A DNA stretch of 64,000 bases from Arthrobacter pascens (GTDB taxonomy: Bacteria; Actinomycetota; Actinomycetes; Actinomycetales; Micrococcaceae). Below are positions 19,703-32,334 of this stretch, one piece after another (position 1 is the first letter of the stretch; each line of letters starts with the position of its first letter). The notes under the pieces are model-generated. The model was given only the letters and a program-made list of their open reading frames with translations. It was not told the origin of the DNA and made no database searches. The stretch lies in contig NZ_JAUSWY010000001.1 in the NCBI RefSeq assembly GCF_030815585.1, forward strand, positions 1,736,001 through 1,800,000, read 5' to 3'. Made by a program: the position numbers and the translations under genes.

Positions 19703-20704
19703 TTGCCCGACCGTGATGCCGCCGCTTGGCTCTGGCTCCGGGAGCGCCTGGCTGCCCTCCGTCCCGCGCCAAGGCATGGAACCGCCGGTCCTTCAGCCAT
19801 CGTCCGCACGGCCGTGGTCACTGACTCCGCGGCCGCGCTGCCGGCTGACTGGATCACCGCGCTTTCCGGCGACGGCCGGCTGACAGTCATCCCCATGCCC
19901 GTGATGGTGGGGGAGGAAATCTATGGTGAGGGTGAGGACGATATCACCGAAACCATCTCGCTCGCATTGGCAACCGGCAGGTCAGTGAAGACCTCGCGCC
20001 CGTCGCCCGGCCAGTTTGAGCAGGCTTTCCTGGCCGCCGAACGGCGGGGGTACGAAGCTGTTGTCTCCATTCACATTTCGGGCGGATTGTCAGGAACCGC
20101 TGATGCGGCCAGGCTGGCGGCCGGCAGAGTGGCCATCCCGGTGGAGGTGCTCGATTCCGGCACGGTGGGCATGGCCCAAGGAATGGGGGTGCAGGCCGCC
20201 GTCGTTGCGGCCGCGGACGGGCAGGATGCAGCCGCCGTCCGCGCCGTTGCCGAGGAACACCTGTCACGGACCAGGGTGTACTTCTATGTTCCCAGCCTCG
20301 AGCAGCTGCGCCGCGGCGGAAGGATCGGGGCTGCGGCCTCCCTCCTGGGAACCATGTTCGCTATCAAGCCCATTCTGGCCGTCGACGGCGGCAAGATCAT
20401 TCCGCTGGAAAAGGTGCGTTCGGCGGCAAAAGCTGTGGCCCGGCTGGAGGAGATAGCGGCCGCCGATGCCGCGTCGCGGCCCGACGGGCAAGTACGGCTT
20501 GCGGTCCATCACTTCGGCAATTCTGCAGAAGCGGAACAGCTGGCGGCCAGGCTCGCCGCTGAGCTGCCCAATTGCCCGCCGGCCCAGATCAGTTCCTTGC
20601 CCGCTGTCCTCGCCGCGCACGCAGGGCTGGGTGTGCTTGCCGTGATCGTCGGGGAGAGCGGGCCTCCGGCCGTGGCGGCGGAACTGCCCGGGCTTTCCAC
20701 ATAG
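19703..20704 (+). CDS. DegV family fatty-acid-binding protein
   Basis: A 333-residue DegV protein. The fold starts near residue 36 with TAVVTDSAAALP, followed by SRPSPGQF, SIHISGGLSGTADAA and the central LRRGGRIGAAASLLG. DegV/FakB proteins bind a fatty acid, in Firmicutes for phosphorylation by FakA; the partner kinase is not in this window. The start is TTG 19703 with a perfect AGGAGG 5 bases upstream. The N-terminal 35 residues (Trp and Arg rich) precede the DegV core. It lies between leuS and comEA. Confidence 0.86.
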   Translation: MPDRDAAAWLWLRERLAALRPAPRHGTAGPSAIVRTAVVTDSAAALPADWITALSGDGRLTVIPMPVMVGEEIYGEGEDDITETISLALATGRSVKTSRPSPGQFEQAFLAAERRGYEAVVSIHISGGLSGTADAARLAAGRVAIPVEVLDSGTVGMAQGMGVQAAVVAAADGQDAAAVRAVAEEHLSRTRVYFYVPSLEQLRRGGRIGAAASLLGTMFAIKPILAVDGGKIIPLEKVRSAAKAVARLEEIAAADAASRPDGQVRLAVHHFGNSAEAEQLAARLAAELPNCPPAQISSLPAVLAAHAGLGVLAVIVGESGPPAVAAELPGLST

Positions 20705-20752
20705 CCTCCGCCGGGCCTGTTGCCGGTGGACACGCCTCCCTAGCGTGGGGAT

Positions 20753-21697
20753 ATGTCACGCCGGGATGCTGGAGCAGCAGCCAGTCATGTGGCGCGCCAT
20801 GCCAGGGACCGGCTGCGGTCCACGTTGGGAGACGGTTCCCGCGGACTGCTCCTGACGGACGGCAGCCCGGAGGGATTCCAGTACGACGACGGCTCAGGCC
20901 ACATGGGGGAGAGCGCAGGCCGCGCCAAACCGGAAGCCGAAATCCGGGACTCCATCCGCCCCCCGCCCCCGGGCACACACCGGATGGGGCAAGCCCTCAG
21001 ATGGCGTCTTGGCCTGCGGGTTGCCGTTCTTCTCGGCATCATCGCGGTCCTGGCCGGCGCCTGGTTCTGGTGGCAGGTGTCCGAGGGCCGGCCTGAGGTT
21101 CTTCCGCTCGATGCCATCTCGCCGGGGAGTGTTCCGGCCGTCCCGGATGGGATACCAGGGGAGGGGCCAGCGACGGAGCCGCCAGCGGGTTCGGGGCAAT
21201 TGGAATCAGGAAAAGGAAACCCGGCAGCTGCCATTGTAGTTGTCCACGTCGCAGGTGCCGTGGCCAGGCCGGGGGTTGTTCAGCTGCCTTCCGGGAGCCG
21301 GGTTCATGAGGCGATTGCCGCCGCGGGCGGGGGCACGATTTCGGCGGACCTCAACCGTCTCAACCTTGCAGCGGCGGTGACGGATGGAGAGAAGATCTAT
21401 GTCCCCGGGCCAGGCGAGCCCCTGCCAGCTGATTCCTCCGGTGCATCATTGGGCCCGGCAGGAACCGGCGACGCTGCCGGGGATACCGCTGTGCAAGGAG
21501 CGGGAGGGAAGACCAACCTCAACACGGCCGGAGTCCAAGAACTTGATGCCCTGCCCAAGGTGGGGCCGGTGCTCGCCCAGCGCATCGTGGACTGGCGGAA
21601 GGAGCATGGACCCTTCAAGACTGTTGAGGAGCTCGATGCGGTGGACGGCGTCGGGCCCAAAATGCTGGAAGCGCTGCTTCCCCTGGTGAGCGTCTAA
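20753..21697 (+). CDS. comEA: ComEA-like DNA-binding protein (SLBB and helix-hairpin-helix)
   Basis: A 314-residue single-pass membrane protein. There is a charged N-terminal region, a membrane helix near 88-107 (LRVAVLLGIIAVLAGAWFWW), a Pro/Gly linker, an SLBB domain (about 160-225, VHVAGAVARPGVVQLPSGSRV) and a C-terminal ComEA helix-hairpin-helix pair (252-314, NLNTAGVQELDALPKVGP). It would bind incoming double-stranded DNA outside the membrane and pass it to ComEC, encoded next. The long N-terminal cytoplasmic part (about 85 residues) is unusual compared with Bacillus ComEA. Confidence 0.88.
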   Translation: MSRRDAGAAASHVARHARDRLRSTLGDGSRGLLLTDGSPEGFQYDDGSGHMGESAGRAKPEAEIRDSIRPPPPGTHRMGQALRWRLGLRVAVLLGIIAVLAGAWFWWQVSEGRPEVLPLDAISPGSVPAVPDGIPGEGPATEPPAGSGQLESGKGNPAAAIVVVHVAGAVARPGVVQLPSGSRVHEAIAAAGGGTISADLNRLNLAAAVTDGEKIYVPGPGEPLPADSSGASLGPAGTGDAAGDTAVQGAGGKTNLNTAGVQELDALPKVGPVLAQRIVDWRKEHGPFKTVEELDAVDGVGPKMLEALLPLVSV

Positions 21698-21740
21698 ATG
21701 CTGTACCCGATGGGGCCTGAAGCCGAGAAGATTGAAGCCG

Positions 21741-23654
21741 ATGAGTAGCCGCAGCCCGTGGAGCCGCTACGTCGAGTCGGCAGTCCGGGTTCAGGCTTTG
21801 CCCGACGCCGCCGGACCTGACGGACTTCTGGGCGCCGCCGGACCTGACGGACGTGGAACTCGCGCCGCTGGACCCGACGGACATCAGGCCGTCGGGCCGG
21901 TCAATGCCCGCCTGACCCGCCCGACCTCCCACGTCGCGGCACAGGTCCGCGGACATTTGGGCAAGCGGCTGCGCGGCCAGGCCCGCGATGCAGCCGGGAC
22001 TGACGTGCCGCGGCGCCGCACGGACCTCCGGCTGGCGTTTCCTGCATTGCTGGTCTGGTGCGCGGCCATCTCGGGCGTCTGGCTGACACCGGAGGCGCTG
22101 GCGGCCGTGTGCGGTGGCCTGCTGTCCATAGCCGGGCTCCTGCTCCACAGGGCCGGCCGGGCCAAGGCCCGGTCAGGGCCACAGCGGGCCGTCCCGCGCA
22201 GCTTCCTGATCACCTCCGCCGTCGCCCTGCTGCTGGCGGCAGCGGCCGCTGGGCATTCTGCCGTCACTTCGTCCCAGCGGTACGATGGCCCCCTCGCCGA
22301 GGCTGTCAAGTCCGGCAAATCCGTCGTCGCAGTTCTGGAGGTGGCCGGCTCGCCCCACGCCCTGGCTCCCGCGGGTCAGGCGGGAACTTCGGGGCGGTGG
22401 TCGGTGGCGGTCACCACTGTGGAGATCACGGCAGGCGGCCAGGTGGTACGTGCCCGCGCGCAGCTGGTGGTCATGGGCGGCGGTGATTGGGGGAAGCTGA
22501 CACCCGGCCAAGTGGTCCGGACCACGGGAAAGCTCAAGGCCGCGGAATCAGGCCAGCCGGAGGCCGGACTTCTGGCTGCAACATCTGCCCCCATGGCCCT
22601 TTCTGCCGCCCAAGGCTGGCAACAGGCGGCCAGGGAGCTGCGTAGCCGCTATGTCTCTGCCGCCGCGTTCCTGGCCGCCGACCCCCGAGGGCTCCTTCCC
22701 GGCATGGTCACCGGAGACACCAGCGCACTGGACGAAGGGCTCAATACAGCCATGAAAGCTGTGGGCATGACCCATCTGACGGCGGTCAGCGGGGCCAACT
22801 GCAGTCTTGTACTGGGCGCCCTGCTGCTGGTGGCCCGTAGCCTTCGGTTGCCCAGGCTGCCCGCGGCGGTGCTGGCACTGGCTGGCCTGGGGCTGTTTGT
22901 GGTGCTGGTGGGTCCGGATGCCAGTGTCCTGCGCGCTGCGTTGATGGGCTCTATCGCCCTCGCTTCTTTAGCCGGCGGCCGCTCCGGCCGCGGCCTTAGC
23001 TTCCTATGCCTTGCTGTCATCGGCCTTCTCGTGTTTGACCCGGGCCTGGGCACGAGCTACGGATTCCTGCTCTCGGTGCTGGCAACCCTCGGAATCATTG
23101 TTCTCGGGCAACGGATGGTCCGCTGGACACCCACAGTGGTTCCGCGCTGGGTGGCGGCAGCTTTTGCCGTGCCGTTGTCCGCGCAGATGCTCTGCGGTCC
23201 GGTCATTGTGCTGCTGCAACCCCAATTTTCCACGTATTCATTGCTGGCGAACGTTGTGGCCTCGCCGCTGGTAGCGCCCGTGACGCTGCTGGGCACGGCT
23301 GCGGTTCCGCTGGTGATCCTGGCGCCGTGGGCAGCCACCGCGCTGATTGCAGTGGCGGGCACCTTCAGTGCCGGCGTGGCGTGGACCGCCAGGTTCACTG
23401 CTGCCCTGCCCGGAGCCTCACTTGCATGGCCCGAGGGAGCCTTTGGGCTTTTGACGATGGTGTTGCTGTCCGCGCTTACCTTGGGCCTTGTGTGGATGGC
23501 CGTCCGCCCCCGGCAGATTGTGCAGTGCGTTGTGGCCCTGCATGGCCGCACGGAGCATTTGCTTGAGCTGGTGGAACGCCGTGTCCGTCGCAGCCGCCAC
23601 TATGCCGTTGTAAATCGGCTTAAGGGGAACGGACGTCCAGGGCGTAGGGGGTGA
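21741..23654 (+). CDS. comEC: ComEC/Rec2 competence channel protein
   Basis: A 637-residue multi-pass membrane protein. The competence domain has the HLTAVSGANCSLVLGALLL signature (about 343-361) and many hydrophobic helices to about 600. No metallo-beta-lactamase domain follows, as in several actinobacterial ComECs. ATG 21741 has GAGAAG 10 bases upstream; TTG 21732 is an alternative. ComEC is the channel for single-stranded DNA uptake. The N-terminus contains three AAGPDG repeats. From base 23317 the 3' end is duplicated, in diverged form, at 27747, suggesting this 3' end was brought in with the neighbouring island. Confidence 0.88.
   Translation: MSSRSPWSRYVESAVRVQALPDAAGPDGLLGAAGPDGRGTRAAGPDGHQAVGPVNARLTRPTSHVAAQVRGHLGKRLRGQARDAAGTDVPRRRTDLRLAFPALLVWCAAISGVWLTPEALAAVCGGLLSIAGLLLHRAGRAKARSGPQRAVPRSFLITSAVALLLAAAAAGHSAVTSSQRYDGPLAEAVKSGKSVVAVLEVAGSPHALAPAGQAGTSGRWSVAVTTVEITAGGQVVRARAQLVVMGGGDWGKLTPGQVVRTTGKLKAAESGQPEAGLLAATSAPMALSAAQGWQQAARELRSRYVSAAAFLAADPRGLLPGMVTGDTSALDEGLNTAMKAVGMTHLTAVSGANCSLVLGALLLVARSLRLPRLPAAVLALAGLGLFVVLVGPDASVLRAALMGSIALASLAGGRSGRGLSFLCLAVIGLLVFDPGLGTSYGFLLSVLATLGIIVLGQRMVRWTPTVVPRWVAAAFAVPLSAQMLCGPVIVLLQPQFSTYSLLANVVASPLVAPVTLLGTAAVPLVILAPWAATALIAVAGTFSAGVAWTARFTAALPGASLAWPEGAFGLLTMVLLSALTLGLVWMAVRPRQIVQCVVALHGRTEHLLELVERRVRRSRHYAVVNRLKGNGRPGRRG
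21807..21882 (+). repeat. Three-copy short repeat in the comEC N-terminus
   Basis: Two identical 19-base copies at 21807-21825 and 21834-21852, and a third with two changes at 21864-21882. Each encodes AAGPDG in frame. Spacing is 27 and 30 bases, so copy number changes would keep frame. Confidence 0.8.
23317..23350 (+). repeat. Left copy of 34-base junction repeat inside comEC
   Basis: These 34 bases are identical to 27747-27780. Upstream of this point the two loci have nothing in common; downstream they are homologous but diverged. That is what an integration or recombination junction in comEC would leave. Confidence 0.75.
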
Positions 23655-23655
23655 A

Positions 23656-23775
23656 ATGGTGGATGTCAGGGCGGCAACCGATCTAATTGCGCGCACCGCG
23701 GCCCAGCAGAACGCGGAGAAGATCCTCCAGCGGGTGGAGGCAGAGGAGAGGCAGGCTCGGCGCGCTGCGATTTAG
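23656..23775 (+). CDS. Tiny hypothetical protein directly after comEC
   Basis: A 39-residue frame starting one base after the comEC stop. It is Ala-, Arg- and Glu-rich with a helix-forming C-terminal half (KILQRVEAEERQARR). GTAGGGGGTG lies upstream as a ribosome site candidate. I do not recognise it. It is the first frame of the island and may be a fragment. Confidence 0.3.
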   Translation: MVDVRAATDLIARTAAQQNAEKILQRVEAEERQARRAAI

Positions 23776-24044
23776 GGCAGACACCTGTATTGTTCATCCG
23801 CCCGGCGTCCGCCGAGCCGTTCACCTACCGGTCGGCGCGGGCGCTGTTCGCCAGCACCGGACGGGAGGTGAAGGTGAACCTGGCGGTGCATGTATGCCGC
23901 GCTAAAAAAGGACTGTGCTGGGACGGACATCTGTACAAGGTTCCTGTTCCACTCGACAACCCGGTGTGGTACGAATGGGACGAGCGCAAGGAACCGCCTT
24001 GCAACTTAGGGTTGGTCCGAATATTTGGAAAGGTAAGGACTAAA

Positions 24045-24200
24045 GTGCTTTCACTCGGAGTTGTTCTACTAATCCTTGGTTATATTTTCAACATTGGAAT
24101 CCTGATAACTATTGGGTGGATTCTGGCTGTTATCGGCCTCGTGCTTTTCGTGCTCGGTGCAATCGGACGCCCTCTTGCCGGAAGACGGTACTGGTACTAA
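24045..24200 (+). CDS. Small two-helix membrane protein, DUF6131-like
   Basis: A 51-residue protein from GTG 24045, with AAGGA 5 bases upstream. Two hydrophobic helices (LSLGVVLLILGYIF and WILAVIGLVLFVLGAIG) are followed by a basic, aromatic tail GRPLAGRRYWY. This matches the small DUF6131-type actinobacterial proteins by general appearance. The frame is open further upstream (to 23790), but the upstream part is hydrophilic, Cys-containing and unrelated to this family, so it is more likely a fragment of something else. Its function is unknown. Confidence 0.5.
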   Translation: MLSLGVVLLILGYIFNIGILITIGWILAVIGLVLFVLGAIGRPLAGRRYWY

Positions 24201-24417
24201 TCGCGCGCTCCGCGCCGCTGCAGGGACCGCGCCAGTCCTCCCCGGTATGCATATTGCCTGGAATGCGCGACGTGGCGATCTCGCCGCAGTCTGGGCGCGT
24301 AGATAAGCCACGCACCACCGACCGGTTGTGGGTCCATTAGTACGGGATCCACGGTGCAGGTGTGGTGGAGTTCGAGGACGACTCAAGCGACTTCAGAACA
24401 CCGGGACAACCCCCGAC

Positions 24418-24651
24418 AAGAGGATCGCGCAGGTCGATCGACTCAAGACTGAGAACGCCAAGCTCAGGGACCGTCTGACACAGGCGGAACAGGCCATCGC
24501 AGAACTCGGCGACTTCCGTGGTCAGGCCCTGGCCCGTCTGGCCGCGCAGCACTGGGAGATCATCCGGCTCCGCGCCACCGCCGACACATCGAGCCGCGTC
24601 GCCCGTCTCCCGGCACGCCGCGCGCAGGCCCCATCGATCGGACCATGCTGA
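24418..24651 (+). pseudogene. Coiled-coil fragment like accessory proteins of tyrosine-recombinase elements
   Basis: The open part reads KRIAQVDRLKTENAKLRD and then a heptad-patterned run to LAAQHWEIIRLRA. Small proteins with this kind of coiled coil (TnpC/DUF6262-like) commonly follow paired tyrosine recombinases in actinobacterial mobile elements. The N-terminal helix-turn-helix part expected for that family is not recognisable and no recombinase gene is present, so this is likely a remnant. The assignment rests on pattern recognition only. Confidence 0.35.
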
Positions 24652-24884
24652 GCTGCCCAGCCGACCCGGCAGCATCTGCGCGACAGCGACTCCGCGCCAC
24701 ACGCGGGTAGTCACAACGCGTCCGCAATGCGATCTCTCTCATGGCGTCAGTGGTCGAATGCAACACGCTGGACGATCCACGTCGCAAACACATCGCCTTA
24801 ACGAACCCGGATCAATGACCACGCAAACCCGACCGCACATCGTCCGGAGGTCTTAGCAGCCCCAAGCTGGTTGTAGGGAGCAGG
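24652..24884. other. Degenerate stretch in the island
   Basis: No full gene. A short open segment near 24718-24818 reads VRNAISLMASVVECN then TLDDPRRKHIALTNPDQ before a stop, but has no start after its preceding stop. It is probably the tail of a broken gene. Confidence 0.35.
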
Positions 24885-25286
24885 TCACGGCTCGAATGGC
24901 AGCAACAGGACCGTGTAGATTCCGAGGATGACGACGCCGGCCGTGACCGCCGCCGTCGAGGTGAGGTCCGGGGGCATGCTTTCCTGGTAGATACCCCTCA
25001 CGGCGCGCCGGACGCCGGGCTTGCGCGTGACGTTGATGGCTAGGGCGGTGACCCCTGCAGCTGCCACGAGAGTTCCGACGAACCAGCCGTGATGGGGCGT
25101 CCAGCGCAGGAAGATCGCGGCAGCGACAACCATCGCCATGGTGGTGGGTCCCCTGGCGAGGTCGGTGCGTCGGCCAGGTCGGGGAGGCGGCGGTGCGATG
25201 ATCCATTCCAGGTCGGCCAGATTCAGCGCGACATTGCGGAGCCAGCGACTCCATCGCAGTGCCGGAGATCGCCAACACATGAGCAT
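24885..25286 (-). CDS. Hypothetical small membrane protein
   Basis: A frame of up to 133 residues. Three hydrophobic segments are visible: TMAMVVAAAIFLRW, WFVGTLVAAAGVTALAIN and AAVTAGVVILGIYTVLLL. The end is acidic (LPFEP). The start is uncertain; GTG or ATG codons near 25140-25145 just before the first helix would give a protein of about 85 residues. I do not recognise the family. It lies alone in the island on the minus strand. Confidence 0.4.
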   Translation of the reverse strand: MLMCWRSPALRWSRWLRNVALNLADLEWIIAPPPPRPGRRTDLARGPTTMAMVVAAAIFLRWTPHHGWFVGTLVAAAGVTALAINVTRKPGVRRAVRGIYQESMPPDLTSTAAVTAGVVILGIYTVLLLPFEP

Positions 25287-25884
25287 GTGGTGGCGAGGGC
25301 GTTATTGGCGTGCTGGTACGGATCTGAAGCTCGCTTTTCGCTCGTTTACGAGCACAGCACCGGACCGATACACACTCCTCCGGGAGTCGGGAAGACCTTG
25401 CTGGCCCAAAGGTCCCAGTACAGCCCTGCGTAGGCACAGCCTGACAAGGGGCACTCTTGACGCCCTTCGAGACGATGAACACTGGGGGAGAGCGGAGCCA
25501 AGTCTCTCCTGTCCAAGGCCCTCAAGACCGGACACGCGGCGACTCAGGAGGCAGTGGAATTCTGCCTAGGCAGCTCTTGATGGCCTGCTTAGCGTGCACC
25601 CATCTCTTGTTCCAACTTTCACTGGCAAGAAAATCTGACATTCTATATAGTTCAAAATGGCCAACTTCGCGCATTTCCGCAGCTCAAAGCCATTTCTACT
25701 ACCCATCTCCGGCTAATAGTTTGTGACCACCAATATTCATTCTTGAGGTATTGGATGCGCCGATGAGGTTCCAATCGGCCGCGAACCTCTGCTGACCGGC
25801 ATTGAGCCGCGGCCCTTGAGAGTCGCACCTTGGGAGAGGAGGCCACCGTCGGCGCATAATGCGTGTACTTGGCGTCCTTAGCCG
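25287..25884. other. Non-coding, partly AT-rich stretch in the island
   Basis: About 600 bases with no convincing gene on either strand. Bases 25620-25760 are strikingly AT-rich for this genome (for example TTCTATATAGTTC), which points to foreign or decayed DNA. Confidence 0.5.
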
Positions 25885-26739
25885 TCACGGGCATCCTGTC
25901 GCCCCGCCGCGGCCAGCCACGTCGACGAGGGCACCGATGAGTTCGGGACCCAGCGCCAGTGCTGCATCGTTGTGGTTCGCCGCCGCTACCTCCACCTCGA
26001 TGACGTAGTTTCCGGCGTCCCGGGCCGCCTGAGCCACCTCCCGGCTCTGCTGTGCGGGCACGATGGTGTCCGCGCTCCCGTAGACCACGGCGGTCGGGAT
26101 GTCCGCTCGCACTACGTTTTCGCGTACCGGGTAGTGATCGCGAAGCATCCAGCCCACCGGCACGCCGTAGGCTGCGCGGCCGAGGTCGGCGAGCGAGGTA
26201 AAAGGTGAGCGCAGCAGCATCGCGGCTGGAGGGTGCTCGGTGGTGAGCTCCGTGACCACCCCGGCGCCGATGCTCTCCCCGAAATAGACGAGCGAGCCCG
26301 CCGGTACTCCTGCCGCACCTGTCAGGAACTCGCGAGCGGCGCGGACATCGCGCGCGAGACCGTCCTCGGACGGGTACCCGGGATTCGCCGCGTAACCGCG
26401 ATAGTCGAAGAGCAGCACGCCGAAGCCGAGCTCGCTGATCGCTCGCCCCAGCCCTGCCCGATTAGCCCGGTTGCCGGCGTTGCCCGGTGCGACGAGCACG
26501 GTCGCGCGGCAGCCGCCTGCGGCTGGCAGGTACCAGGCACCGAGCTCGAGGTCGTCACTCGTCGTGAGCGTGACTTCCTGGGCTCCGGGCAACAGCTCGG
26601 CGGCAGGGCGTGGCTGGCCGCGGTCGGGAAAATAGATGAGCGAGCGTTGGAAGAACCACGGCATGCCAATCAGGAGCCCGACGACGACGAACACGGTCGC
26701 GAGCAGCATGATCCTTCGCGCCGTCAACTTTTTCGCCAC
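25885..26739 (-). CDS. Membrane-anchored alpha/beta hydrolase (BEM46/YfhR-like)
   Basis: A 284-residue protein starting at GTG 26739 (VAKKLTARR), with AGGAC close upstream. One N-terminal membrane helix (about 10-28) is followed by FFQRSLIYFPDRG, typical of BEM46-like serine hydrolases anchored outside the membrane. The nucleophile elbow is GESIGAG, the acid lies in YGSADTIVP and the His in ANHND. Substrate unknown. The frame is open much further upstream, but those residues look non-coding. It lies inside the island, and nothing near it suggests a pathway. Confidence 0.7.
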   Translation of the reverse strand: MAKKLTARRIMLLATVFVVVGLLIGMPWFFQRSLIYFPDRGQPRPAAELLPGAQEVTLTTSDDLELGAWYLPAAGGCRATVLVAPGNAGNRANRAGLGRAISELGFGVLLFDYRGYAANPGYPSEDGLARDVRAAREFLTGAAGVPAGSLVYFGESIGAGVVTELTTEHPPAAMLLRSPFTSLADLGRAAYGVPVGWMLRDHYPVRENVVRADIPTAVVYGSADTIVPAQQSREVAQAARDAGNYVIEVEVAAANHNDAALALGPELIGALVDVAGRGGATGCP

Positions 26740-26906
26740 CGTCCTATGATCGCAGAGCGGTTCGCGCCGCACACGGCACGTGACCCACGACCTGATCACC
26801 GACCGCTGACGCAGGCCGCCGAGCACTGTATGGGGCACGCCGCAACGGGGCGGACGTGACAGCGAAGTTCCGGTCGGCTTGCGAGGCACGAGCCGGTATA
26901 AAGGAT

Positions 26907-26920
26907 CTAAGGGGTATTCA
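26907..26920 (+). repeat. 14-base direct repeat, copy 1
   Basis: CTAAGGGGTATTCA, exactly repeated at 27648-27661. The sequence AGGGGTATTCATCT (26910-26923) also recurs inverted, 13 of 14 bases, at 27737-27750 on the island edge. Confidence 0.7.
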
Positions 26921-26984
26921 TCTGACGGACTAGACTCAGGGCGTGGATGCGGATCGGCCTCGGGCGGGTGCCTCAAGACGGCAG

Positions 26985-27614
26985 TTACGGAGCAGTCGAT
27001 GGCTGGTTTAGGTGTTTCCTGAAGTGGTCTTCGATCCGCTGCCATGCTTCCGGGGAAGCCTCCGGGTCCGGCTTGATGCCCATGATCCGGTTCAGCGGAC
27101 GCAGCAGTTTCGGTGCCAGGTCGGCGTCGTTCATGAAGGCGTGGCTGGAGACGGGAAACTCCTTGACGTCATTCTCGATTCCAAGCCCGTTGAGGGCGGA
27201 CTTCAGCTTGGCGGCCGCGCCCGGCAGCGTGTGGTCCCGGCCGCCGTAGTTGGCCACCACTGGACATGATCCGCGCAAAGACTCCTCTAGGCGCCTGGGG
27301 AGTTGCCCGTAGTTCACGGACGCAGCATCGAAACCGTCCTTGGCCACAAGCAGGGCAAAGCCGCCGCCCATGCAGAAGCCGATCACACCCGTCTTTCCGG
27401 TGCTGCGCTCCGAAGTGCTGAGCCAGGTCCGTGCGGTGGCCAGATCGGTGAAGGCCTTGCCGGTGCCCGAGATCATTGACCGCATGGTGCTCACAAGGCA
27501 GCGGCGGGCGCCGCCGTCGCTGTAGAGGTCCACGGCCAGCGTCAGGTAACCGGCTGCGGACAGCCTGTCCGCATGGCGGCGCATCCTGTTGCCGGATACC
27601 GGACAGTCTGCCAT
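26985..27614 (-). pseudogene. Dienelactone hydrolase family protein, N-terminally truncated
   Basis: About 209 residues with the DLH catalytic Cys in GFCMGGG, the Asp in YGGRDHTLP and the His in SSHAFMND, so the catalytic core is complete. The N-terminal strands normally preceding RHADRLSAAGYLTLAVDLY are missing. The in-frame coding sense continues upstream (ending GATDARLLMADCPVSGNR) until a TAG that lies inside the CTAAGGGG repeat, so the gene seems cut exactly at the repeat. ATG 27614 might still start a shortened protein. Family members hydrolyse cyclic esters; this copy is probably not functional. Confidence 0.6.
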
Positions 27615-27647
27615 CAGCAGCCGTGCATCGGTTGCTCCGTAAGTGCC

Positions 27648-27661
27648 CTAAGGGGTATTCA
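27648..27661 (+). repeat. 14-base direct repeat, copy 2
   Basis: CTAAGGGGTATTCA, identical to 26907-26920. Together they bracket the truncated dienelactone hydrolase gene. Confidence 0.7.
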
Positions 27662-27736
27662 CTGCTGTGGGTTCATTCCCGCCAGGACCGACCAGCCCTG
27701 GGCCGTCCCAGGCTTGGCGGGTGACCGCGTGGCTTT

Positions 27737-27750
27737 AGATGAATACTCCT
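27737..27750 (-). repeat. Inverted copy of the repeat at the island edge
   Basis: On the minus strand AGGAGTATTCATCT, 13 of 14 bases the same as 26910-26923. Its outer end overlaps the first bases of the 27747 comEC junction, so it may be an element terminus. Confidence 0.6.
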
Positions 27751-27780
27751 GGCGCCGTGGGCAGCCACCGCGCTGATTGC
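27747..27780 (+). repeat. Right copy of 34-base junction repeat
   Basis: Identical to 23317-23350 within comEC. It is the start of the displaced comEC remnant. Confidence 0.75.
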
Positions 27781-28085
27781 GGTTGCCGGCACCTTCAGTG
27801 CCGGCGTGGCGTGGACCGCCAGTTTATGGCGGCCTTTCCGGGCGCCTCGCTGCCGTGGCCCGAGGGAGTCTTCGGACTCCTGACCATGGCGATGCTGTCC
27901 TCGCTGAGCGAGGCCGTCACCTGGCTGGTTGTCCGGCCCCGCCAGGTCCTCCAGCTAGTCATGGCATTGCACTCCCGGACGGAGGCCGTCCTTGAGCTGG
28001 CGGAACAGCATGTGCGCCGGCAGCGGGCCAGGCACGGGCCTGACCGCCGCTGGCGCGGCTTGGAGCCACAGGCCCTCCATGGCAG
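27747..28085 (+). pseudogene. Displaced comEC 3' remnant
   Basis: It encodes the last quarter of ComEC a second time. The first part (APWAATALIAVAGTFSAG) is in one frame. After a one-base loss near 27821 (AGTTTATG against AGGTTCACT in the intact gene) the rest follows in another frame, as AAFPGASLPWPEGVFGLLT and later VRPRQVLQLVMALHSRTE. It is clearly homologous to 23317-23620 but diverged, not a fresh copy. Its place directly before holA is where a comEC end is expected, so it is probably the original native 3' end. No start or upstream part exists. Confidence 0.75.
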
Positions 28086-28124
28086 GCTTAGAACCTGCAC
28101 CAAAATTTCCAGGAGGAATCCCGA

Positions 28125-29141
28125 ATGGCCGCTGCGCCGTCCCCGCGAACCCGGACATCTGCGTCCAACACCGCCACCTGGCGGGACGTTGCCCCGGCCG
28201 GAGTAGTGCTGGTCGGCGGGCCTGAGGAGTACCTCGGGATCAGGGCCATGGACCACATCAGATCGCAGGTGCGTGCCGCTTCCCCTGATGTTGAGGTCAC
28301 ACGGCTTAATGCCGGCAGCTACGAGGCCGGGACACTCGCAATGAACGTCAGCCCCTCGCTGTTCGGCGAGAGCAAGCTGATCGAGGTCGAAGGTGTTGAA
28401 ACCATGACCGACGCCTTCCTGGCTGATGCCCTTGCCTACCTGGCCCGCCCGGAGCCCGATGCCGTCCTGGTGCTCCGCCACGCAGGGGGAGTGCGCGGCA
28501 AGAAGCTGCTCGATGCAGTCAAAACGGGCGGGTGGCCCGTTGTGGACTGCCAGCCCCTGAAAAAGGATGCGGACAAGGCTGCGTTCGTGGCCACCGAGTT
28601 CCGGGCCGCCGGACGGCGGATTGATTCCGACGCCGTGCGGACTCTGGTCAACGCCGTCGGCGCCAACCTTTCGGAACTGGCGGCAGCCTGCAGCCAGTTG
28701 ATCGCGGATGCCAGCGGAGCCGTGACGTCAGACCTGGTGGACCGCTATTACGGCGGCCGGATTGAAGCCACGGCGTTTAAGGTTGCCGATGCGGCGATGG
28801 CGGGAAACGGACCGGCCGCTCTCTCCACCCTTCGCCATGCCCTCGCCACTGGAGCCGATCCGGTTCCGCTGGTGGCTGCGTTGGCCGCCAAGCTCCGGAC
28901 TGTGGCGAAAGTGGCCGGCGCACAGGGATCCTCCGCGCAGATCGCCAAGGAGCTGGGAATGCAGGCCTGGCTGGTGGAACAGGCCCAACGTGACGTCCGC
29001 CGCTGGACCCCGGAGGGACTGATCCGCTCCATCCAGGCCACGGCTGAGGCTGACGCCCAGGTCAAGGGCCTCTCCCGGGATCCGGTCTACGCCGTGGAGC
29101 ACGCGGTAACGGTCATTGCGACGTCGGTGCTGCGGCACTGA
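28125..29141 (+). CDS. holA: DNA polymerase III delta subunit
   Basis: A 338-residue clamp-loader delta subunit, which opens the sliding clamp. The segments VVLVGGPEEYLGIRAM, SLFGESKLIEVEG and the C-terminal helical collar with KELGMQAWLVEQAQRD fit HolA. AGGAGG stands 9 bases before ATG 28125. It follows the comEC remnant, the usual actinobacterial order comEA-comEC-holA-rpsT. Length is normal. Confidence 0.9.
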   Translation: MAAAPSPRTRTSASNTATWRDVAPAGVVLVGGPEEYLGIRAMDHIRSQVRAASPDVEVTRLNAGSYEAGTLAMNVSPSLFGESKLIEVEGVETMTDAFLADALAYLARPEPDAVLVLRHAGGVRGKKLLDAVKTGGWPVVDCQPLKKDADKAAFVATEFRAAGRRIDSDAVRTLVNAVGANLSELAAACSQLIADASGAVTSDLVDRYYGGRIEATAFKVADAAMAGNGPAALSTLRHALATGADPVPLVAALAAKLRTVAKVAGAQGSSAQIAKELGMQAWLVEQAQRDVRRWTPEGLIRSIQATAEADAQVKGLSRDPVYAVEHAVTVIATSVLRH

Positions 29142-29227
29142 CCCGTCGGGGAGGCCTGGCTATCTTCCAGGGAAGGTGGGTCATCCAAGGTGGGCCGGCA
29201 AAGTCAGGTTGGCAGCCTTAAACGTGT

Positions 29228-29256
29228 GTGGCCGGCGCCCAGAGGGCGCCGGCCAC
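29228..29256 (-). terminator. Terminator hairpin after rpsT
   Basis: A 13-base stem (29228-29240 with 29244-29256) and a 3-base loop. The T-tract on the minus strand is weak (ACACGTTTAAGG). It lies 29 bases past the rpsT stop. Confidence 0.6.
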
Positions 29257-29284
29257 AAACATCAGTTCAGATGAACTGGAAACC

Positions 29285-29545
29285 TTACAGTGCGTTGACC
29301 TTCTTGGAGATCGCCGACTTGCGGTTCGCTGCGTTGTTCTTGTGCAGAACACCCTTGCTGACAGCCTTGTCCAGCTTGCGGCTGGCTGCAACCAGGGCAA
29401 CAGCAGCTGCATCCTTGTCAGTGGACTCAACGGCGGTGTTGACAGCGCGGATGGCCGTCTTCAGCTCGGACTTGACTGCGTTGTTGCGCAGGCGAGCCTT
29501 CTCGTTGGTGAGGATGCGCTTCTTCTGGGACTTGATATTAGCCAC
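29285..29545 (-). CDS. rpsT: 30S ribosomal protein S20
   Basis: An 86-residue, Lys/Ala-rich basic protein starting [21 protein letters not shown] from GTG 29545. It matches S20 over its full length, including the C-terminal [18 protein letters not shown]20 binds the 5' domain of 16S rRNA early in assembly. It is convergent with holA and has its own terminator. Confidence 0.96.
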
Positions 29546-29714
29546 GTGTGAACTCTCTTTTTAATGCGGAAATGGTCTAGAGGGCTTTCAGATTGGCCAT
29601 TGACTGAGCGGCGTGGGGATACCTATGGCGGCCAACCATCAGTGGCCGTCGACCTGCACGGACACACAGCTATAAAGAATAGCAGATTGGCCCGGAGGCT
29701 GGCCATTTGGCGGC

Positions 29715-30254
29715 CTAGCTCCAGCCGTGTCGGCGGCGGAGTTCTGCGGCGACCAGATCAAAGCGTGCCCGTTCCAGAACGGCTCCCTCGCGCCGGATGC
29801 CTTCCGGGCTGATCTGGAGGATCCTTCGAAGATTTGCTTCACTCGGCCTGGACTGGCGGTCCCAGCTTCCAGTGCCGACATCCACGTAGTCGCCGGCACT
29901 GTTGCCGTCCTGGTCGTGGTCCCTGCTGGTAAGCATCAACCCGAGCAGGTGGGGACCGTTGTGTCCGATCAGCAGGACCGGACGGTCCTTTCCCCTGCTG
30001 TAGTCCTCTTCGTAGGGCACCCAGGTCCACACCACTTCACCGGGGTCAGGGTCACCGTCGGGTTCCGGGGCATAGTGGACTGCCGAGATTCCGTGGAAGT
30101 CGCCGGGATACCCGGCGGACACTCCGGTCCGAGCGCGCACGGGAGTTGGAGTTGCGGTGCTCCCAGGCGATCCGGTGCCGCCGGAGCGGAACCTTTCCAG
30201 GACCCGAAGGGACGTCCGGACTGCGTTGCCCAGTGAGCGGAGGTTTATTGCCAT
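29715..30254 (-). CDS. PemK/MazF-like toxin-family protein
   Basis: A 179-residue protein. A non-conserved, basic N-terminal part (1-70) is followed by a PemK-like core with GEVVWTWVPYEEDYSRGKDRPVLLIG as signature. MazF/PemK toxins are ribosome-independent mRNA endonucleases. No antitoxin gene is next to it: upstream is the divergent lepA region, downstream rpsT. Such orphan PemK-like proteins with a long N-terminal extension occur in actinobacteria, and toxicity is unproven. The start is ATG 30254. Confidence 0.72.
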   Translation of the reverse strand: MAINLRSLGNAVRTSLRVLERFRSGGTGSPGSTATPTPVRARTGVSAGYPGDFHGISAVHYAPEPDGDPDPGEVVWTWVPYEEDYSRGKDRPVLLIGHNGPHLLGLMLTSRDHDQDGNSAGDYVDVGTGSWDRQSRPSEANLRRILQISPEGIRREGAVLERARFDLVAAELRRRHGWS

Positions 30255-30312
30255 GGGGAAACCATATCCCCGGTCAGTCCTGGCGTTGGCCCCGCTTTAA
30301 GGAACCGGAGCC

Positions 30313-30372
30313 CCATTGCAGGACCAGTGCTCCTGCAATGGCGCACTGAGTTGTCCGCAGAATGCAGTGCGC
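30313..30372 (+). promoter_or_regulatory. Nested alternative hairpins between pemK-like gene and lepA
   Basis: CCATTGCAGGA 30313-30323 pairs perfectly with TCCTGCAATGG 30331-30341. CAGTGC in its loop (30325-30330) could pair with GCACTG 30342-30347 instead. GCGCACTG 30341-30348 pairs with CAGTGCGC 30365-30372. The competing stems could act as an RNA switch for lepA or as protein sites for the divergent genes. Confidence 0.4.
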
Positions 30373-30480
30373 GGCCCCGGGACGTGGGACACTGGAGGTT
30401 CCACATGTGCGGCCCGTCCGCAGGGCGCCTTCGTTGCGTCCTGGCGGAGGTCGTGTGAAAGCCAACAGTAAGGACCCTGC

Positions 30481-32334
30481 GTGTCTCCCATGGCCCGCAC
30501 CGCCCCGGTGCCCGCCGCGACAGATCCGGCCATCATTCGGAATTTCTGCATCATCGCGCACATCGACCACGGTAAGTCCACCCTGGCCGACCGCATGCTG
30601 CAGTTCACCGGAGTCGTTCAGTCCCGCGACATGAAGGCCCAGTATCTGGACCGTATGGATATTGAGCGCGAACGCGGCATCACCATCAAGTCCCAGGCCG
30701 TTCGGATGCCGTGGGAGCTTGACGGGACCAGTTACGCCCTGAACATGATCGACACGCCCGGCCACGTCGACTTCACCTACGAGGTTTCCCGCTCGCTCGC
30801 GGCCTGCGAAGGCGCAGTGCTGCTCGTGGACGCAGCCCAGGGCATCGAGGCGCAGACCCTTGCCAACCTCTACCTGGCGATGGAGAACAACCTCACCATC
30901 ATTCCGGTGTTGAACAAGATCGACCTCCCCGCTGCCCAGCCCGAAAAGTACGCGGCGGAACTGGCCAACCTGATCGGCGGCGATCCCGAGGACGTACTCC
31001 GCGTCTCGGGTAAGACCGGTGCCGGCGTCGAGGTCCTGCTGGACAAGATCGTCCGCGAACTGCCGGCCCCGGTGGGCGACCCCAACGCACCGGCCCGCGC
31101 CATGATCTTCGACTCCGTCTATGACACCTACCGAGGCGTTGTCACGTACGTGCGCGTGGTCGATGGCATGCTGCACCCCCGCGAACGCATCCAGATGATG
31201 TCCACTCGTGCCACGCACGAACTCCTCGAGATCGGTGTCAGTTCCCCGGAACCCACGCCCTCCAAAGGCCTCGGCGTCGGCGAGGTCGGCTACCTCATCA
31301 CCGGTGTGAAGGACGTCCGCCTGTCCAAGGTGGGCGATACCGTCACCAATCTTGCCAAGCCGGCCGCTGATTCCCTTCCCGGCTATGCCGATGCCAAGCC
31401 CATGGTTTTCTCCGGCCTGTACCCGCTGGACGGCACCGACTACCCGGTGCTCCGCGATGCGCTGGAGAAGCTGATGCTCAACGACGCCGCGCTGGTGTAC
31501 GAGCCCGAAACGTCCGCAGCGCTGGGATTCGGCTTCCGGGTGGGATTCCTAGGCCTGCTGCACCTGGAAATCACCCGCGAGCGGCTCGAACGCGAATACA
31601 ACCTGGACCTGATCTCCACCGCCCCCAACGTGGAATACGAGGTGACGCTGGAGGACAAGAAGGTGGTCCACGTCACGAACCCCAGCGAATACCCCACAGG
31701 CAAGATCGCTGAAGTCCGCGAGCCGATGGTTTCCGCCACTATCCTGGCGCCGAACGAGTTTGTCGGCGCCATCATGGAGCTGTGCCAGAGCCGGCGCGGA
31801 GTCATGGGCGGCATGGACTACCTGTCCGAGGACAGGGTGGAAATCAGGTACCGCCTGCCGCTGGCCGAAATCGTCTTCGATTTCTTCGACATCCTCAAGT
31901 CCAAGACCCGCGGCTACGGCTCGCTGGACTGGAAAGCCGACGGCGAACAGGTGGCCGACCTGGTGAAAGTGGACATCATGCTCCAAGGCGAACAGGTTGA
32001 TGCCTTCAGCGCCATCACGCACCGTGACAAGGCCTACGCCTACGGTGTGATGATGACTGGCAAGCTCCGTGAACTCATCCCCAGGCAGCAGTTCGAGGTG
32101 CCTATCCAGGCTGCCATCGGCTCCAGGATCATCGCCCGGGAAAGCATCCGGGCTATCCGCAAAGACGTTCTTGCCAAGTGCTACGGCGGTGACATTTCCC
32201 GAAAGCGCAAACTTCTGGAGAAGCAGAAGGAAGGCAAGAAGCGCATGAAGATGGTGGGCCGCGTCGAGGTCCCGCAGGAGGCCTTCATCGCCGCGCTGAC
32301 CACCGACGAGTCCAAGGACAAGGCCAAGAAGTAG
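30481..32334 (+). CDS. lepA: Elongation factor 4 (LepA)
   Basis: A 617-residue translational GTPase that acts on stalled or mistranslocated ribosomes. The GTPase motifs are IAHIDHGKS (25-33), RGITIKS, DTPGH and NKID. The LepA-specific C-terminal part [16 protein letters not shown] is present. GTG 30481 has AAGGA about 6 bases upstream; ATG 30490 is an alternative. hemW follows after 36 bases, so they probably share a transcript. Length is normal for LepA. Confidence 0.95.

Follow-up and report, generated by a model that had tools for sequence, protein, structure and literature searches.

Insertions at a glycine codon of comEC and a stranded comEC 3' end beside holA in Arthrobacter

Introduction

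How does a bacterium come to carry a whole gene and, beyond an island of some 4 kb, a second and diverged 3' end of that same gene? The question is raised by a 64,000-nucleotide stretch of Arthrobacter pascens DNA (NZ_JAUSWY010000001.1, positions 1,736,001 to 1,800,000 of a 4.73-Mb one-contig genome), hereafter the window, in which an intact comEC, the gene encoding the DNA-uptake channel, is followed by an island and then by a comEC 3' end that overlaps holA. The original prediction, made from the sequence alone, held that an element had integrated within comEC at a 34-base repeat and had brought its own 3' end to restore the reading frame, leaving the native end beside holA; comEC would then be a previously unnoticed integration hotspot. 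Some elements do integrate within a gene and bring its missing 3' end, e.g., prophages in icd. From a comparison across the genus, we find that the comEC–holA interval is almost certainly a hotspot targeted by integrases, and that the point of entry in relatives is chiefly the codon for Gly354. For the window, the arrangement probably arose when elements sat in tandem at that codon and comEC was later made whole with a 3' end of other origin, the native end being left beside holA.

Results

The two comEC 3' ends of the window

The features of the two loci are as follows.

21732..23654, plus strand: left comEC, intact, 640 amino acids, open frame, with PF03772 and DUF4131
23317..23392, plus strand: near-identical tract, copy 1, with 73 of 76 bases the same as in copy 2
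23394..23654, plus strand: left comEC tail, lacking the common end that overlaps holA; most similar to the tail in G016
27747..27822, plus strand: near-identical tract, copy 2
27747..28206, plus strand: stranded comEC 3' end, from codon 528-529 onward, one base short near 27821, overlapping the holA start
28125..29141, plus strand: open frame that we take to be holA, used as a query in relatives and matched in 202 of 206 genomes

The left comEC product covers the PF03772 Competence domain over almost its full length. The identical 34 bases noticed earlier (23317-23350 and 27747-27780) proved to be part of the 76-base tract, in which a further 35 bases are also identical (23358-23392 and 27788-27822), with three mismatches between the two repeats. 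These are the only plus-strand repeats of at least 25 bases in the window. To the left of the tract the loci do not align and are unrelated, as had been described; beyond it, the copies drop to 69.0% DNA identity (171 bases) and 62% protein identity, close to the 60% estimated by eye. Given 31% divergence, the chance of three or fewer mismatches in 75 bases is about 5e-9, and the tract therefore has a history unlike that of the DNA after it. The right copy indeed lacks a 5' part and one base near 27821, and its end was placed slightly short at 28085, as the frame continues to 28206, into the start of holA. A whole-genome search with 23317-23654 retrieved two places only, the left and right copies.

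Insertions between comEC and holA across the genus

For a census, 206 genomes of the genus, including that of the window, were searched with ComEC and HolA proteins, weaker matches were added, and the tally coordinates were entered by hand. The two genes lay less than 500 bp apart in 154 genomes. A larger gap, from 862 bp to 40.5 kb, was found in 31, five of them below 1 kb; the window's gap of 4473 bp is counted here. comEC was split in 16 genomes, in one genome (G170) two contigs held a whole comEC together with a second 3' end, and four (G027, G166, G187, and G209) lacked one or both genes. Among the 202 genomes having both genes, comEC was broken or parted from holA in 48, which bears out the predicted hotspot for this genus. 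As controls, no more than 300 bp separated comEA from comEC in 62 of 66 loci, and the remaining four are fragments of comEC at ectopic places; the gene that follows holA lay within 600 bp in 30 of 35, the exceptions being one distant genus, G016 at 608 bp, and three loci without a match; these control loci are not a random sample, and some come from the same genome. Nine gaps (G034, G067, G071, G110, G112, G146, G165, G171, and G222) contained no second comEC end or site at the thresholds used. These nine, along with G060, G198, and G213, entered the tally simply as insertions and may differ in kind. G157 was classed as split with no junction read, and G126 and G225 have a right junction with an arm score only.

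Junctions at Gly354

A left junction was read in 13 of the 16 split genomes. Eleven fall at the Gly354 codon, with the motif MTHLTAVSGANC, and two (G008 and G220) at codons 346-348; the crossover point is mostly the GG within the Gly354 codon. Most of the right junctions read join an arm like ACCCACCTCCT...TTAACATTCACTGG to comEC from Gly354 onward, with arm sequences that differ from the common type in G189, G008, and G220. Both junctions were read in 10 split genomes.

All 13 left junctions lead into element DNA, such that comEC is broken and no comEC 3' end is supplied. This result contradicts two parts of the original prediction, the repeat as the integration site and the element that carries its own 3' end. 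An element that entered at the repeat, in codon 528, and restored the frame in this way would account for a right copy that begins exactly at the repeat and for a left tail most like the tails in other island genomes. We nevertheless regard such an event as very improbable: none of the 13 left junctions lies at the repeat or runs into a comEC 3' end, an attachment site of the Gly354 kind lies mid-island and away from the repeat (see below), and the window and G016 share no DNA behind the left tail. The repeat was likewise rejected as an integration core, no junction having been read there.

Candidate integrases

PF07508, the large serine integrase family, was sought in 24 genomes. Of 13 split genomes, nine have a matching gene within or after the break, located between the comEC halves in six (G008, G107, G128, G154, G189, and G220) and downstream of the broken comEC on the same draft contig in three (G003, G068, and G108). 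G199 has a match 226 kb downstream on the same contig, which was left out of the count, and G012, G121, and G207 have none inside the split gene. All three integrase proteins tested contain Resolvase and Recombinase domains, the same domain make-up as the serine integrases of actinobacteriophages. Ten integrases form two families, one of 508-526 amino acids (56-99% alike) and one of 454-469 amino acids (49-88%), with 30-40% identity between them. No phage record was at least 60% identical to these proteins; the best matches among those listed were mostly from Gordonia phages, at 33-34% and 42-43% identity. Serine integrases also occur in Arthrobacter phages, in an account whose consulted portion does not contain the terms attP and attB (PMC8758107). 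Because junctions and integrase genes coincide in the relatives, comEC appears to be the attachment gene for elements with large serine integrases that would cross over at the GG of Gly354, the enzyme activity being predicted.

Further observations concern insertion into comEC. The second insertion point, at codons 346-348, is represented by loci L051-L053 (G008) and L088-L090 (G220), where integrases of the 454-469-amino acid family adjoin the right junction and the inserts are 40 kb. A weaker arm-like copy occurs about 168 bp before the right arm in five loci (L056:1287, L067-L069 joined:42093, L081:1776, L087:16055, and L096:4528) and is perhaps an accessory site for the integrase or an excision factor. 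Short comEC fragments ending near codon 352 are found away from the comEC locus in L157 and L158 (G214), L155 (G059), L156 (G161), L159 (G076), and L154 (G167:C7). G214 carries two fragments 109 kb apart, one covering codons 311-354 and the other codons 352-459 plus a right junction, and its comEC proper is intact at another place; we read the fragments as ectopic element arrays with comEC flanks. When 395 genomes of the family were scanned with a strict attachment-site pattern, two matches were obtained, both in this genus and none in 31 other genera, a scarcity that says little because the strict pattern also missed known sites.

A probable element relic in the window

Relative to these elements, the left comEC and the island comprise the following features.

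22782..22804, plus strand: attB, intact, in left comEC codons 351-358, with the Gly354 GG at 22791-22792, the same point as in 11 of 13 left junctions
23805..25625, plus strand: right end of a comEC-targeting element, colinear with G172:C17
25598..25660, plus strand: complete attP-like site, central GG at 25624-25625
25626..25860, plus strand: left end of a second element, 74-76% identical to DNA straight after the broken comEC in G121 and G012
25861..26826, minus strand: 966-bp block containing the greater part of an alpha/beta hydrolase gene (PF12146/PF00561)
26985..27614, minus strand: dienelactone hydrolase family gene (PF01738)

The first 150 bases of the island, up to 23805, had no match. 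Identity to G172:C17 is 92-93% over 23805-25279 and 81% over 25370-25625, with the 90 bases between unaligned; in G172, the matching DNA stops at a right junction that reads into comEC from Gly354. The left arm of the attP-like site, which was outside the training arms, scores 31.3, where 13 known arms score 7.3-39.2 in leave-one-out and 20 shuffled windows score at most 18.0. Its right arm, by reading, matches the internal-site arms in G107 and G199, and the attP-like site together with 25626-25860 is 88% identical to G121:C18. Comparable sites lie inside the inserts of G107, G154, G167, G199, and G207 and in G121:C18 and G003:C39, and would be joints between tandem elements. In the window, the attP-like site has an element right end to its left and an element left end to its right, and from this we infer that elements sat in tandem. 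The island would then be the decayed remains of a tandem element array without an integrase.

The same features bear on another conceivable origin, in which the comEC 3' end was duplicated in tandem long ago and later received an insertion of unrelated DNA. Plain duplication does seem to occur in the genus: in G182 (L076), 746 comEC bases are present twice, 100% identical and about 16 kb apart, with no attachment site, reflecting either a recent simple duplication or the assembly. For the window, however, we consider this origin even more improbable than entry at the repeat, since the island carries element ends and an attP-like site, and the right copy, with a well-kept protein, one frameshift, and no later stop, is ill-suited to an old dead copy.

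Other parts of the island have relatives elsewhere. The 966-bp block is found at 94-97% identity in seven other genomes (G205, G019, G172, G171, G145, G210, and G185), away from comEC–holA, with borders the same within a base in four and slightly shorter in three; it may be a small mobile unit carrying a gene. Window positions 25170-25387, part of the element right end, recur at 91% identity elsewhere in the window's genome (G000:C1:2391971-2392186, L150) with no attachment-site match there. The idea that the conserved non-coding stretch at about 25598-25862 reflects an RNA family was considered and dropped, as a search of 20000-31000 gave three matches with E < 1, none in that stretch and all below the gathering score.

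Whole comEC genes with a second 3' end

Nine genomes besides the window's (G136, G140, G143, G150, G167, G170, G172, G182, and G223) have an intact Gly354 site in the first comEC and a second 3' end adjoining holA. The first copy is an open frame in eight of them and frameshifted in G143, and identity between the two ends ranges from 72.7 to 100%. Seven retain a right junction ahead of the second end, G150's being weak (leave-one-out 7.3), and G136 and G182 lack one. In five (G136, G143, G150, G172, and G223), a piece of holA follows the first comEC. No PF07508 match lies in the island of any of the nine, in contrast to the 9 of 13 split genomes (p = 0.0017). G121 combines a split comEC and a right junction carrying the 3' half with a further 3' remnant beside holA, distributed over three contigs.

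Which 3' end is native

A comEC tail overlapping holA, like that of the window's right copy, was found in 18 of 21 relatives. It is missing from G016 and G139, which have islands, from G224, which does not, and from the window's left copy. Of the loci compared, G169 (85.9%) and G099 (84.4%) have the holA DNA most like that of the window, with G016 at 80.6%, an order not seen in HolA protein identity. The left tail is instead nearest to that of G016 (84.2%), an island genome, although holA DNA does not place G016 nearest. The empty relatives G169 and G099 do not end like 23351-23654 (67.8% and 60.8%), but neither do they single out the right tail (68.4% and 67.8%), which is 75.4% identical to that of G016. 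In protein, the three tails nearest to the left tail, those of G016 and of the left copies of G172 and G140, all belong to comEC copies directly before islands (p = 0.012, post hoc).

G172 presents a fuller form of the window's layout. Its two copies are nearly identical up to about codon 556 and then diverge; the switch in the window is at about 553. Its holA-side tail and holA match members of its own clade (G129, G028, and G036), and the left tail and the holA fragment match members of the window's clade (G169 and G016). The native end thus stands beside holA and the foreign tail on the other copy. A Campbell insertion of a foreign circle was discarded, since it predicts unlike codons 354-556 and the G172 copies are nearly identical there, a signal that gene conversion could mask. 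The prediction that the 27747 copy is the native end accordingly stands in part: it is joined to holA, has the prevailing tail type, and has its counterpart in G172, while the window's own identities leave the matter undecided.

Probable breakage and rebuilding of comEC

The history we consider probable has three steps. After elements came to sit in tandem at the Gly354 site in the window's ancestor, recombination would have brought a comEC 3' end of another origin, making comEC whole while deleting the integrase gene together with the left junction; seven other genomes display a comparable end state in which the right junction survives. The native 3' end would have stayed next to holA, losing codons 354-527 and a single base. 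The 76-base tract may be a leftover of a longer alike stretch, derived from a same-species donor or from gene conversion between the copies, and no attachment core.

Several observations weigh against this history. With no PF07508 match in its genome, the window can be no more than a relic, and no junction in it is fused to Gly354, the link to that site resting on homology. Codons 354-527 are absent from the right copy, and tail identities do not settle the native end for the window. They also leave the polarity undecided in G223 and in G136, where the first holA fragment is 87% identical to relatives and the start of the full holA 97%. The left copy of G140 appears unbroken from its own 5' half onward, and the right piece is the one nearer to relatives, which makes the polarity opposite to that of G172. 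Finally, uptake by transformation is hardly possible with a split comEC, and rebuilding therefore needs another route.

The last two points suit a one-sided import, in which the recipient comEC was never broken. Donor DNA from a split comEC (the right part of an element, the right junction, the comEC 3' half, and holA) would have entered by a homologous join on the right and an illegitimate join on the left, behind the recipient comEC, so that the left copy is native and the holA-side copy the donor's. A single event and a working uptake channel suffice, and both the absent left junction and integrase (none of nine) and the holA pieces after the first comEC (five of nine) are explained. Against it, the polarity of G172 is opposite, and the window's left tail is unlike those of its nearest holA relatives, G169 and G099, and like that of G016. 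Because the native end lies beside holA in G172, G140 is contrary, and G223 and G136 are undecided, we favor rebuilding and hold one-sided import to be unlikely, though well ahead of the alternatives dismissed above.

Discussion

Insertion into comEC by a serine recombinase has precedent in streptococci. The Phi1207.3 (Tn1207.3) and Phi10394.4 elements of Streptococcus pyogenes integrate at a GA in comEC (PMC4260502, PMC4288039), and the elements described here resemble them in interrupting comEC at a dinucleotide with a serine recombinase (PMC4260502). They differ in using a GG at Gly354 and in occurring in another phylum, the comparison being by target dinucleotide. The portions of the Phi1207.3 accounts consulted make no mention of tandem arrays or of second comEC 3' ends beside holA. 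Tn1207.1 splits the pneumococcal comEC and stops transformation (PMC8321556, PMC12637031), and other elements lie in the competence genes comYC, comFA, and comK, where, according to the parts of the reports consulted, they are argued to escape removal by transformation (PMC8321556, PMC4774983, PMC12637031). As with Tn1207.1 and its kin, mobile DNA here breaks a competence gene; unlike there, the host is a soil genus, one codon is used in many species, whole-comEC states with a stranded 3' end occur, and the role of comEC in transformation is putative.

The likeness to icd-type elements lies in a second gene 3' end beyond the element. The difference is that, at the 13 left junctions read, the broken comEC leads into element DNA, with no replacement end.

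For comEC integration in Arthrobacter, no report was found in the open-licence literature, as judged by titles and the openings of abstracts. The claim of a previously unnoticed hotspot therefore holds for these bacteria to that extent and fails for comEC in general, given the streptococcal cases, as far as those sources were seen (PMC4260502, PMC8321556). The novelty, in our view, lies in the host group, the Gly354 site, the tandem arrays, and the existence of whole comEC genes with a stranded end as a class.

We tentatively extend the history of the window to the genus, with less confidence than for the window itself. comEC would be broken by insertion at one codon and then made whole again, at times with another species' tail. 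Rebuilding would restore the attachment site, take the left junction and the integrase from the element, and trap its cargo; G121 would be a second round of the same process.

Whether elements hit transformation genes to escape removal has been argued, in the portions of the literature consulted, chiefly from streptococci and other pathogens. Here, about a quarter of the species genomes in a soil genus have something lodged within comEC or immediately after it, and where the position is readable it is mostly a single codon. Broken, whole-again, and apparently re-broken comEC genes stand side by side, which would make the conflict countable on a species tree, and the genus also yields candidate serine integrases of two families whose attachment sites can be read.

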